From assembly GCF_009755605.1 (NCBI RefSeq), contig NZ_WPNZ01000005.1:310001-374000 (forward strand): a stretch of DNA of 64,000 nucleotides, read 5' to 3'. Shown piece after piece: positions 28,619 through 48,654 of this stretch. The translations under genes and the position numbers were made by a program. The notes beneath the pieces were generated by a model. It worked only from the letters and a program-made list of their open reading frames with translations. It searched no databases and had not been told where the DNA came from. How positions within the stretch are numbered: the stretch's first letter is position 1; every line of letters begins with the position of its first letter. The stretch is from Streptomyces typhae (GTDB lineage Bacteria > Actinomycetota > Actinomycetes > Streptomycetales > Streptomycetaceae).

Positions 28619-31600
28619 TCAGCGCCGGGACCTGCGCAGGCGCTCCTCGATCAGGGGCACGATCCCGTCCAGTACGCCCGGTGTCACCATCGTGTGGTGC
28701 TTGGAGTCCACGAAGTGGCACGTGACGTCGCCGTCTATGTGGTCCCGCCAGGTGTCCGTGCCGAGGACCGAGAACGGCCGGTCGGTCGCGGCGAACAGGA
28801 TCAGGTCGGTGGCGACCCGCCCGTGTTCATGGTCGCTGGTCAGGCGCAGGAAGTGCTGGTTGCGCCGCTGCAGAGCCAGCATCTCCGCTTCGGAGAGGGA
28901 GCCGAGGGCGGTGCCGGTGGTCCGGGCGACCTCGGCGAACTCCTCGTAGGTGCGGCACGGCTCCTCCAACTCGACCCCCATCGCCTCCAGGAGCACCTCG
29001 TAGGTCTGGCCGGGCCGGTTCACCTCGTCCCACTCCTCCTGCCGCAGGGCCCTGGCCGGCTCGGAGTCCAGGGCGAACACGACCTCGACCCGTTCCCCGG
29101 CGCGCTGGAGCTGCGCCGTCATGGCGTGGGCCACGATGCCGCCGAGCGAGTGGCCGAGCAGGTGGTACGGGCCCTCGGGCTGGACCTTCCGCATCGCCTC
29201 GACGCAGTCCGCGGCGATCTCCTCGACGCTCGCGGGCAGGTCGTCCGGGCTGCCCAGCATGCGGGACTGGAGTCCGTACACCGGGATGTCGGCGCTCAGC
29301 AGCGGTAGCAGGTTGGCGTAGCTCCAGCAGTCTCCGCTGCCCTGGTGCAGGCAGAACAGGGGCGGCATGTCGCCTGTCGTGCGCAGCGGCAGCAGGATGT
29401 CCACGGAGCTGTCGTCGGTGCCGTCGGCGAGGTGTCCGGCGAGCGAGGCGACGGTGGCGTGGGCGAAGACGGTCCGCAGGGGAACCTCGGCGCCCAGTGT
29501 CTCCCGGATGCGGCTGATGAGCGTGGTCGCGAGGAGCGAGTGCCCGCCCAGCTCGAAGAAGTTGTCATCGACACCGACCGTGCCGATCCCCAGAACCTCG
29601 GCGAACAGGGTGCACAGGACCTCCTCGCGCGGCGAGCGCGGTGGCCGCCCCGCGGTGCCGTCGGCGAGATCGGGTGCGGGCAGGGCGCGGTGGTCGATCT
29701 TTCCGTTGGGGGTGAGAGGGAGTTGGTCGAGAGTGATGAGGGTGGTGGGAACCATGTGCTCGGGGAGGCGCTCACGCAGGCCGGCGCGGATGTCGGCGGT
29801 GCTGAGCTGTGTGCCGAATCCGAATCCGAAGCTGAAGCCGCTCCCGGCGCCGGTGCCGATGCCGGGGGCCGGGACGAGGTAGGCGATGAGTCGTTGGTCG
29901 CCGGGTGCGGCCTCGTGGGTGGTGACGACGGCTTGGGAGATCTGGGGGAGTGCGGTGAGTGCGGTGTGGATTTCGGCGGGTTCGATGCGGAAGCCGCGGA
30001 CCTTGATCTGGTTGTCGGTGCGGCCGAGGTGGTGGAGTTGGTGGTCGGTGTTCCAGCGGACGCGGTCGCCGGTGCGGTAGAGGCGGGAGCCGGGTTGTCC
30101 GTGGGGGTTGGCGACGAAGCGGTCGGCGGTGAGTGCGGGGCGGTCGAGGTAGCCGCGGGCCAGTCCGGAACCCTCGATGTACAACTCGCCGGGGGTCCCG
30201 GGCGGGGTGAGGCGCAGATGCTCGTCGAGGACGTAGAGGCGGGTGTTCGGCAGTGGCAGCCCGATGGGCACGTGCGGGGTGGTGAGGGGGTGGCTGATGG
30301 TGGTGAGCGCGGTCGCTTCGGTCGGGCCGTAGACGTTGTGGAAGTGGCGTTCGGGGGTGGCCCAGCGGGTGACGAGGTCGGGGGGGCAGGGTTCGGCGCC
30401 GACGAGGAGGGTGCGCAGGTCGGTGAGGGTGTGGGGGGCGTCCTCGGGGAGGGTGGCGAGGACCGAGGGCGGGATGAACGCGTGCGTGATGCGGCCGTCG
30501 GCCAGGACCCGGGCCAGTTCCCCACCGGCGAGGCGCGGTTGGTCGGGGACGACGAGGGCGGCACCGGAGCGGAAGGCCATCGCGTATTCGAGGATCGACG
30601 CGTCGAAGCTGGCCGAGGAGAGTTGCAGGACGCGGCTGTCGGCAGTGGTATGCCCCCGGTCGGTGAGGGCGGCGCCCAGACCGGTGAGGCCGTTGTGGGT
30701 GGCGGTGACGCCCTTGGGGCGGCCGGTGGAGCCCGAGGTGTAGATGATGTACGCGATGTGGTCGCAGGTCAGCGGGGCCGTGCGGTCGGCGTCCGTCGGA
30801 TCGGTGACGGCTGCCCGCTCCCACTGCGCTTGCAGCTTCGGGCTGTCGACGGCGACCAGTGGCGCGGACACCTCCCGCGGCAGGCCCCGGGCCGTGGCCC
30901 GGCTCGTGAGGATCAGGGCGGGCGCGGCGTCCCCGGCGAGGTAGGCGATCCGCTCCGCCGGATAGTCGGGGTCGATGGGCAGGAACGCGGCGCCCGCCTT
31001 GGTGATGCCGAGGACGGCGGCGACCTGCTCGGACGAACGCGGCAGGGCCACGCCGACGAGGTCCTCGGGGCCGACGCCCTCGCCGATGAGCCAGTGCGCG
31101 ATGCGGTTGGCCCGCTCGTTCAGCTCCCGGTAGGACCAGGCGTACCGGGAGTCCTCGACCGCGAGGGCGTCGGGGGCCGAGCGCACCGCGGTCTCGAAGA
31201 GAGCGGACAGAGTGGCGGGGGCCACCTGCTCGGTGACCTCCGCCCGCCGGGTCAGCAGCTCCCGTTCGGCCGTCGTGAGCAGGTCGGCGTCGCCGACGCG
31301 CAGCTCCGGGTCGGCGACCGCGGCGGCCAGGAACCGCCGCCAGCGGCCCACGAACGCCTCGACGGTCTCCGCGTCGAACAGTTCGGTGGAGTACTCGACG
31401 CCGAGGGCCATCCCCGCGGCCACGGGCCGGCTCCCGTCGGCCTCCGCGAAGGTTTCGGAGAGAGTGAACAAGAGGTCGTACCGGGACGTGCCGGTGCCGG
31501 TGCCCTCGGTGCGGATGCGCAGGCCCGGCAGGTCGAACTGGGCCTCCTCGTTGTTCTGCACGGCGAGGGCCACCTGGAACAGCGGATGCCGGGACGCGGA

Positions 31601-47235: not shown

Positions 47236-48654
47236 TCAGACGACGCGGCGCTGCGGCCTGCTGAACGGGCAGGGCTGGGAGAAGAACTCGCGCCGCTCCT
47301 GCACGTCCTGGAAGTTGAGCTGGGTGGAGGCGCCCGTCGCGGCCAGGAGCATCCCGTCGGTGGAGTCGGGCCCGTCGAGGTAGGCGGCGAGGGGGCTGCC
47401 GGTGGCGCTCAGCGGGATGTGCGGACCCTTGTCGAGGCGCGCGGTCGGGTCGGCCTGGGCCGCGTTGTCCCGCATCTTGCGCACGGTGCGGATGGCGTCG
47501 GGGGCACCGGTGAGCGACTTGGTCTCCATGCCGCCGAGGTTGTTGCGCGGCAGGTGGAGGTGCATGTCGCGCCAGGCGAAGATGAACACCCGCAGGCCCA
47601 CGCCGTGCCGTTCGAGGCGCGACAGGAACGGGTCCTCGCAGCCCTCGTCGCGCAGCCGCGCCAGCTCCTCGCCGAACTGGTCGAACAGGTCGGTGAAGAG
47701 GTGGAAGCGCATGCTGACCGAGTGACTGCCGCTGGTCAGGCCGAGGTTCTCACGGATCTGGTGGTAGTCGTGGGTGCTGAGGTTGTCGACGATCGGCGGG
47801 AGGCACACCTCGACCGGGTCGAACAGTTCGGCGGCGCCGTCCAGGACGTCGACGGCAAGGGCGATGTCGCCCTTGCGGGCGTGCAGGATCGCCGCCTCGA
47901 TGCGGTCGTTGATCTCCCGCACGAGCAGTTCCGGTATCTGGTGCAGGGCGCGGAACTGCGTGAAGTAGGTGTCGCCTGCCAGATGGTGCTCGTGCACGGC
48001 GTACCGCAGCCGGTCGGCGGCGAGCAGTCGCTCCGGTACGGCTCCGGGCGCGGGGTGGGCGGACTTGGCGAGGTTGGCGCTCCACACACGTGCGTCGTGG
48101 TTGGCGACACGTACGCAGTGCAGCACTCCGAACCACGCGTCTTCGAGGCCGCGCTCGGCGATGACCGCGTCGACGTCGACGCGGCCCTGCTCGGCGAGCT
48201 CGGCAAGCTGCCGGTCGAAACGGCGCAGCGCCGGTTCGAACTCGGCGTACGCGGGTGTCGCCTCCACGTCCCAGCGCTCCGTGTCGGGGCGCAGACCGCC
48301 GCTGACGCGCAGGGCGGCGATGCTGAGCCGGACCAGGACCCGGTGGAAGCTGCGCACCCAGTGCAGGGCGGAGACGCAGCGGTCGACGTCCAGCGCCCGC
48401 AGGTGGCCGCTCGCGCGGTCGAGGAGGTCGGTCAGGTTGTACATGGCGATCTCGGCCGACTGGTAGAGCCCGACGAGCAGCGCCTCGGGTGTCACAGGTT
48501 CCGCGGTCGCCTCCGTACGGGCGTCCTCGATCGCGCGCAGGCTCTGGAGGGCGTAGTAGTGCTCGGCGATGACACCGCGTTCGTTCTCGGCGGCGGGTCG
48601 CCGGGTCTCGGGAATCCGGGTGTCAGGAAACTGGGCGGCAGGTTCGAGTGGCAT
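47236..48654 (-). CDS. Tryptophan 2,3-dioxygenase-superfamily heme protein (divergent)
   Basis: About 472 residues. The second half aligns by eye with tryptophan 2,3-dioxygenase: FTQFRALHQIPELL (HQxxEL, near residue 235), LGLTSGSHSVSMRFHLF (near 310, with the substrate-contacting Arg position) and FAWRDMHLHLPR (near 360, His as probable heme ligand). The family inserts O2 into the indole ring; relatives act as oxygenases in antibiotic pathways. The usual GTGG loop is missing and the Arg-His spacing is much shorter than in true TDO, so N-formylkynurenine formation is not assured. The first half seems to repeat the same fold (HYYALQSLRAI, LYQSAEIAMYNL). ATG 48654 follows AAGGGGAG. It probably belongs to the NRPS pathway as precursor or tailoring enzyme. 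Confidence 0.72.
   Translation of the reverse strand: MPLEPAAQFPDTRIPETRRPAAENERGVIAEHYYALQSLRAIEDARTEATAEPVTPEALLVGLYQSAEIAMYNLTDLLDRASGHLRALDVDRCVSALHWVRSFHRVLVRLSIAALRVSGGLRPDTERWDVEATPAYAEFEPALRRFDRQLAELAEQGRVDVDAVIAERGLEDAWFGVLHCVRVANHDARVWSANLAKSAHPAPGAVPERLLAADRLRYAVHEHHLAGDTYFTQFRALHQIPELLVREINDRIEAAILHARKGDIALAVDVLDGAAELFDPVEVCLPPIVDNLSTHDYHQIRENLGLTSGSHSVSMRFHLFTDLFDQFGEELARLRDEGCEDPFLSRLERHGVGLRVFIFAWRDMHLHLPRNNLGGMETKSLTGAPDAIRTVRKMRDNAAQADPTARLDKGPHIPLSATGSPLAAYLDGPDSTDGMLLAATGASTQLNFQDVQERREFFSQPCPFSRPQRRVV

Follow-up and report, generated by a model that had tools for sequence, protein, structure and literature searches.

Residues that bear a furan ring and residues that contain an N-N bond are both rare and pharmacologically important. 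Could a single peptide of Streptomyces typhae combine them? The question is raised by a two-gene locus in a stretch of 64,000 nucleotides (the window; contig NZ_WPNZ01000005.1, positions 310,001 to 374,000, numbered here from its first letter), in which a long gene for a nonribosomal peptide synthetase (NRPS) follows a gene for a putative heme-dependent aromatic oxygenase (HDAO). An earlier note, made from the letters alone, had read the locus as the source of a pentapeptide of the pattern D-a, b, c, N-Me-a, c, with an oxidised aromatic unit made before or after assembly. Here, we report that the codes of the adenylation domains agree with this pattern, that residue b is very probably L-piperazic acid (Piz) and that piperazate genes lie on another contig of the genome. 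The best explanation of the whole, to which we would give even chances, is an N-methylated cyclopentapeptide built from furylalanine and piperazate.

Residue pattern of the five-module NRPS

The NRPS gene (28619-47083, minus strand, 6154 aa) has a GC content by codon position of 0.76/0.52/0.94, which is as expected of a real high-GC gene. Pfam detects AMP-binding, Condensation, PP-binding, methyltransferase and thioesterase domains in its product, and the active-site motifs are in place: five cores of thiolation (T) domains, HHxxxDG in one epimerisation (E) and four condensation (C) domains, EIGAGSG in the N-methyltransferase (NMT) and GHSLGG in the thioesterase (TE). With the adenylation (A) domains, the order is A-T-E / C-A-T / C-A-T / C-A-NMT-T / C-A-T-TE, for which independent support comes from Pfam and the motifs, since our domain profiles were seeded from the window's own domains. 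The claimed architecture of five modules, with E in module 1, NMT in module 4 and a terminal TE, is thus confirmed.

All modules lie on the minus strand. Module 1 (43724-47026) begins with its A domain, without a starter C domain, and ends in E. Module 2 (40271-43597) and module 3 (37085-40213) follow; the C-domain motif of the former is of the DCL type, which we take to be typical of C domains accepting a D residue, and that of the latter presumably of the LCL type. Module 4 (32687-37036) carries the NMT, with the S-adenosylmethionine motif EIGAGSG, inside its A domain (33044-34153), and module 5 (29444-32638), supported by code and domain profiles, precedes the TE (28622-29383; PF00975, 5.1e-32). 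The module 2 C domain contains a 27-bp in-frame tandem repeat (43123-43291, 6.3 copies at 95%), which encodes a 9-residue repeat (VGERAGTVR-like); this domain has 514 aa vs approximately 450 aa for the other C domains.

The codes, read from an A-domain alignment with the final K assumed, are DVWTSAGCAK (module 1), DVFSVAAYAK (module 2), DALFLGVALK (module 3), DVWTTAGCAK (module 4) and DALFLGVALK (module 5). Since the codes of modules 1 and 4 are one letter apart and those of modules 3 and 5 identical, the pattern D-a, b, c, N-Me-a, c of the earlier note holds, where a is of an aromatic type by code and A-domain tree, epimerised in module 1 and N-methylated in module 4. Residue c is probably branched-chain aliphatic, as judged from the code of modules 3 and 5, whose A domains are 84% identical. 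Two other candidates were considered and rejected: serine at module 1, which goes with DVWH-type codes, on account of the DVWT code, and a decadepsipeptide of the luzopeptin type, on account of the absent starter C domain.

Probable piperazic acid at module 2 and its proposed supply

A full-text search of 5.39 million papers for six 10-letter codes returned three papers, each of them matching the module 2 code and dealing with piperazic acid. According to PMC9866976, DVFSVAAYAK is the code of HmtL-A1 and of four modules (4-7) of the lunaemycin synthetase Lun22. In a tree of 79 A domains the module 2 domain falls into a 15-row clade of DVF/YSVA-type, that is Piz-type, codes (SH-aLRT 99); the underlying panel excluded domains of at most 300 aa or under 120 bits, merging brought it from 83 to 80, and one of the 80 was dropped for length before the tree was built. 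Because the code is identical to those of HmtL-A1 and Lun22 and the domain lies in the Piz-type clade, residue b is very probably L-piperazic acid.

Piperazic acid is made by an ornithine N-hydroxylase (KtzI) and a heme-dependent piperazate synthase (KtzT). The genome has a single PF04299 (KtzT-type) match, at position 465591 of contig C34, while the window lies on contig C45. Beside it are a PF13434 gene of the KtzI type (among four strong matches genome-wide) and an MbtH gene (among five). The whole block (C34:459436-467355) comprises an LmbU-type regulator, KtzT, KtzI, MbtH, argJ, argB and argD on both strands and contains no NRPS gene; a P450 gene is also found there, outside the conserved block. 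In the window and its 14-kb flanks tblastn detected neither KtzT nor KtzI. Piperazate genes inside the NRPS cluster are a usual, not an obligatory, feature of Piz-incorporating NRPSs, and one that is absent here. We had also considered N-N bond formation by the HDAO itself, an idea dropped once the KtzI/KtzT-type pair had been found.

The arrangement of the block is conserved. Order and orientation from LmbU to argD are kept in Streptomyces aureoverticillatus and Streptomyces lasiicapitis, and in Streptomyces longispororuber except for LmbU, where the contig ends; identities across the three are 84-96% for KtzT, KtzI, argJ, argB and argD and 50-96% for the MbtH open reading frame (ORF). All three species carry an HDAO of the window's type, and in the stretches read around their piperazate blocks no match to the module 1 A domain was detected. 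KtzT matches at 1e-10 occur in six of ten HDAO-bearing genomes, S. typhae included, one of them weak (29%); the three genomes whose HDAO locus includes a Piz-type code each have a match of at least 87%.

The genome of S. typhae gave 88 A-domain matches in a search that scored 150 of 185 candidates, and 30 of them had their codes read, with a few more added later. Thirteen of the 30 have DVFSVA-type Piz codes, the window's included, and these are spread over six contigs (C45, C31, C34, C9, C60 and C17), so that one piperazate gene block may feed several assembly lines. Between 446 and 475 kb of C34 the sole NRPS-like ORF is a methyltransferase-like match (446966-448108); further NRPS-like ORFs (matches of 25-35%) lie at 435939-446044, approximately 12-22 kb from the block.

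As compared to lunaemycin, himastatin and the kutznerides, the S. typhae system shares the module 2 code (with Lun22 modules 4-7 and HmtL-A1) and the presence of a KtzI/KtzT-type pair with ornithine genes, and differs (PMC9866976) in the location of the Piz genes on another contig in a block without NRPS and in a single Piz per chain. N-methylation and the predicted HDAO-made residue set it further apart. With a Piz code at module 2 and with a piperazate synthase, an ornithine N-hydroxylase homologue and MbtH on another contig, the two genes of the locus are probably not the whole pathway.

The HDAO gene encodes a distant relative of TDO and MarE

The HDAO gene (47239-48654, minus strand, 472 aa) starts with the ATG at 48654, ahead of which AAGGGGAG forms a good Shine-Dalgarno sequence, and ends 155 bp before the NRPS start on the same strand, as the earlier note had described. 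Its protein has no Pfam match at 1e-3 and no credible match to a single sequence of the PDB. The note had called it heme-dioxygenase-like. One alternative, a true tryptophan 2,3-dioxygenase (TDO) that would supply the peptide with kynurenine or a unit of the anthranilate/quinaldate type, draws on a weak TIGR03036 match and on the presence of TDO among the nearest solved folds. Against this, the scores are 24.6 bits vs a cut-off of 390.7 for TIGR03036 and 12.8 vs 34.9 bits for PF03301, and on these grounds the protein is not a TDO proper. Moreover, the genome has two separate TDO loci, no kynurenine-pathway family is present among the 20 neighbours scanned, and module 1 lacks a C domain for an acyl starter. 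We regard a true TDO as highly improbable. Elsewhere in the genome a true TDO family match (C15:77705-78364) lies among NRPS A-domain matches (C15:74557-95110), and a peptide from that region may contain kynurenine.

In an alignment of HDAO homologues (12 rows, the window's included), conservation is nearly complete around GDTYFTQFRALHQIPE, DYHQIRENLGLTSGSHS and WRDMHLHLPRNNLGG. Invariant in all 12 rows are F234, H238 (distal), Y297, R301 (carboxylate) and H365 (proximal heme ligand), roles assigned by profile alignment to TDO and MarE at E 0.04 to 0.7. They are the equivalents of F51/H55/Y113/R117/H240 in TDO numbering. An AlphaFold model (pLDDT 75.6, pTM 0.77) matches MarE best (VIA-align Z 14.0), followed by TDO (11.7-12.0), IDO (9.4), SfmD (8.3) and PrnB (8.2); unrelated helical chains such as MukBEF start at Z 8.9, level with SfmD and PrnB, and values below approximately 13 possibly reflect an arrangement common in helical models. 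Foldseek gave no E-value of 0.001 or less with this model, and VIA-align re-examined the same candidates. Since motifs and modelled fold point the same way, we assign the protein to the HDAO superfamily. Fold, proximal and distal His and the carboxylate Arg are those of MarE, TDO, IDO, PrnB and SfmD as described in PMC11904535, whereas the length (472 aa vs 242-281 residues in TDO and MarE chains) and an extra N-terminal helical region are not. An oxidised aromatic unit provided by a heme enzyme of dioxygenase fold, as the earlier note proposed, is thus supported.

The Arg of MarE is the residue to which the substrate's free carboxylate binds (PMC11904535). Because this Arg is conserved as R301, the substrate is likely a free amino acid, which favours oxidation before assembly over oxidation after it, the two options the earlier note had left side by side. 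We consider it quite likely that positions 1 and 4 receive an oxidised aromatic amino acid supplied by the HDAO.

A related enzyme in the rhizonin producer

Which amino acid might this be? Searched by tblastn with the HDAO, 72,556 plasmids yielded just one match at 1e-5, from Mycetohabitans endofungorum B5 (25.8% identity, 6e-17, 89% covered), a strain from Rhizopus microsporus on Mozambican ground nuts. M. endofungorum makes the furylalanine peptide rhizonin (PMC12306442). The matching protein (530 aa, annotated as hypothetical) is encoded directly upstream of, and on the same strand as, an 11,376-aa NRPS, followed by MbtH. A profile of the HDAO family recovers it over its full length at 151.8 bits (5e-45, 3276 sequences searched). 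Of the two TDO loci in that host, one scores 17.4 bits and the other is not among the matches listed; MarE and TDO chains score 12-16 bits, near background. Window and M. endofungorum proteins have the motifs QFRAxHQ, Y..IR..LGxTSGSHS, WRDxH and DVQxR in common.

The M. endofungorum NRPS has exactly two DLWSIAAACK modules, both with NMT and one with E, as expected for rhizonin, which holds two N-methylated furylalanine (Fua) residues, one L and one D. Its upstream protein is probably RhzB, the furylalanine enzyme. Ehinger and co-workers (2023, Angew. Chem. e202308540) are reported to have described RhzB as an HDAO which turns Tyr/DOPA into furylalanine, and to have been led by it to the bingchamide cluster. 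Bingchamides, from Streptomyces bingchenggensis, are Streptomyces cyclopentapeptides with furylalanine; a search for the HDAO in Streptomyces milbemycinicus and 40 relatives detected it in S. milbemycinicus only and did not locate the bingchamide cluster. The S. typhae and M. endofungorum loci are alike in gene order, in the use of one residue type twice, once via an E domain, in N-methylation by the NRPS and in the terminal TE. They differ in size (eight A domains there, five modules here), in MbtH, adjacent there and remote here, and in the Piz-type code, found here and absent there. The earlier note knew of no pathway with only these two genes; the layout nevertheless has this precedent, a distant HDAO upstream of an NRPS.

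A bridge between the two is provided by Pseudonocardia acaciae, which has an HDAO with 42% identity to that of the window. On its contig, the A domain that comes first (DVWTVAAACK) is 59.6% identical to the DLWSIAAACK domains and, in the panel of 80, their nearest relative outside that synthetase. A conservative link from the a-codes of the window to DLWSIAAACK runs through this Pseudonocardia code alone.

Several points weigh against furylalanine and against the pathway as we draw it. The identification of the M. endofungorum protein as RhzB is our own. The candidate's NRPS, with eight A domains and three NMTs, does not match the heptapeptide rhizonin A in count, and rhizonin A has two N-methyl residues. 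Identity of the window HDAO to the candidate is only 24.5% over 436 columns, which is why we can but infer furylalanine; the candidate also forms a very long branch of unsure position in the tree, and homologues without an NRPS neighbour (31-34%) are closer to the window HDAO than it is. The a-codes of the window are unlike DLWSIAAACK, and in the tree the DLWSIAAACK domains group with Pseudonocardia, then with Actinomadura-type domains, apart from modules 1 and 4. Modules 1 and 4 instead have A domains that share a 15-row clade (SH-aLRT 99) with Phe-like A domains of S. typhae itself (DAWTAAAVCK), which, once HDAO loci are set aside, are also their nearest relatives. Those of modules 3 and 5 belong to that clade too, despite their aliphatic-looking code, and residue c is for this reason the least certain. 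Three codes read at an acidobacterial HDAO locus (DAYSSLAVWK, DAFFLGMTFK and VDWWVSLDAK; one of its A domains, of 333 aa, was read for its code and is absent from the tree) include none of an aromatic type. Finally, the NRPSs on the five other contigs, or the NRPS-like genes near the C34 block, could be the intended users of Piz.

An alternative is a hydroxylase. If the HDAO were TrpH- or TyrH-like, modules 1 and 4 would load hydroxylated Trp, Tyr or Phe; the superfamily includes monooxygenases and oxygenases of tyrosine-derived metabolites, and a heme hydroxytryptophan enzyme family is cited there (PMC11904535); the nearest A domains outside HDAO loci are Phe-like, and RhzB is distant. The gene layout, however, matches that of the rhizonin producer, and the family profile gives 151.8 bits to the M. 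endofungorum protein vs 12-17 bits for MarE and TDO. As compared to DAWTAAAVCK, the window codes have V instead of A at 236 and C/A at 330/331, a faint hint at a pocket of different shape and not of greater room. We consider a hydroxylase unlikely, yet the most serious of the alternatives. Furylalanine in particular we put at roughly even chances.

HDAO homologues and their neighbourhoods

Exact peptide patterns revealed 11 homologous HDAO loci in a collection of 84,980 species genomes, a count which the search mode makes a lower bound; within the genus, five of 295 genomes, S. typhae included, have an HDAO match at 1e-10. An NRPS or NRPS-PKS gene adjoins the HDAO in nine of the 11 loci, the exceptions being an alphaproteobacterial metagenome-assembled genome (L023) and S. 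longispororuber (L020, 1088-3718), where an HDAO 90% identical to the window's is followed by a lipoate-ligase gene; on other contigs the latter species has A-T-E-like matches at 55-64%. MbtH lies just upstream in three loci (L017-L019). One of these, in Streptomyces sp. ISL-94 (L017), is a cluster of a different kind, with stand-alone A-T, T-C and C-A-T proteins, two P450s, an FkbM methyltransferase, MbtH and an ATP-grasp-like protein under the Pfam cut-off.

A 32-row clade of the A-domain tree unites modules 1, 3, 4 and 5 of the window with the A domain that first follows the HDAO in all seven loci L013-L019, with the first A domain of the Pseudonocardia contig and with the DLWSIAAACK domains of M. 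endofungorum. This clade has an SH-aLRT of 81, below the 95 mark, and includes nine A domains of S. typhae from other loci.

These neighbourhoods bear on a further alternative, in which the HDAO acts on the completed peptide or on a different residue, such as piperazate, which it might dehydrogenate or hydroxylate, or serves an unrelated pathway. HDAO and Piz-type codes co-occur in S. aureoverticillatus and S. lasiicapitis as they do in the window, and the HDAO of S. longispororuber and three of three distant genus homologues (L010-L012; 31-34%) have no NRPS-like gene beside them, for the latter in the 17-20 kb read. On the other hand, the HDAO loci of Actinomadura, S. milbemycinicus and Pseudonocardia showed no Piz code over the stretches read, which were incomplete, four of nine other HDAO genomes searched lack a KtzT match at 1e-10, and the invariant R301, by analogy to MarE, speaks for a free amino acid as substrate. 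Tailoring or an unrelated role thus seems improbable to us, though less so than a true TDO.

Surroundings of the locus

An array of 11-bp and 22-bp direct repeats (GCGTCAGGAAC, the 11-bp unit in four copies) lies upstream of the HDAO gene at 48985-49038 and is a possible operator or regulator site. Just past the HDAO, at 50146-51087, a RimK-like ATP-grasp gene stands divergent from a DJ-1/PfpI gene and shows no sign of cluster membership. As the earlier note had seen, neither MbtH nor a transporter is adjacent: a Pfam scan of 20 neighbouring predicted proteins, with some small or doubtful ORFs left out, detected no MbtH, no transporter was found beside the locus, and the nearest MbtH match on the contig is approximately 160 kb away.

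Proposed pathway and its significance

In the pathway that we prefer, the HDAO would oxidise a free aromatic amino acid, most likely Tyr (or DOPA), to 3-furylalanine, as RhzB reportedly does with Tyr/DOPA for rhizonin. Modules 1 and 4 would load this product, module 1 epimerising it to D and module 4 N-methylating it. Module 2 would load L-Piz provided by the KtzI/KtzT-type pair of the unlinked block that also carries MbtH, and modules 3 and 5 would load one and the same residue, probably branched-chain aliphatic. The N-terminus being free on module 1, the chain would probably be released by the TE through head-to-tail cyclisation. The predicted product is cyclo(D-Fua, L-Piz, Leu/Ile/Val, N-Me-Fua, Leu/Ile/Val), with a computed [M+H]+ of 627.3501 for Leu/Ile at c and 599.3188 for Val. 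If the HDAO did not act, the cyclic Phe/Leu and Tyr/Leu counterparts would have 647.3915 and 679.3814, and a linear form is heavier by 18.0106.

A literature search returned no paper holding both furylalanine and piperazic. A wider view of the family, which we put forward tentatively and at less than even confidence, is that the HDAO belongs to an undescribed subfamily, seen in Streptomyces, Actinomadura, Pseudonocardia and an uncultured Acidobacterium, which provides NRPSs with an aromatic amino acid whose ring has been remodelled, be it furylalanine or a novel one; that S. typhae runs a split assembly in which one unlinked piperazate/ornithine/MbtH block serves NRPSs on six contigs; and that the product of the window joins an HDAO-made residue and piperazate, perhaps as the first such peptide.

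If true, the locus would show, in readable form, how furan-bearing and N-N-bonded residues come together in one cyclopeptide, and the HDAO sequence family would be a place to seek more furylalanine-type enzymes. The NRPS would moreover receive a key building block and its MbtH partner from an unlinked block, and cluster-boundary prediction would miss part of the pathway.

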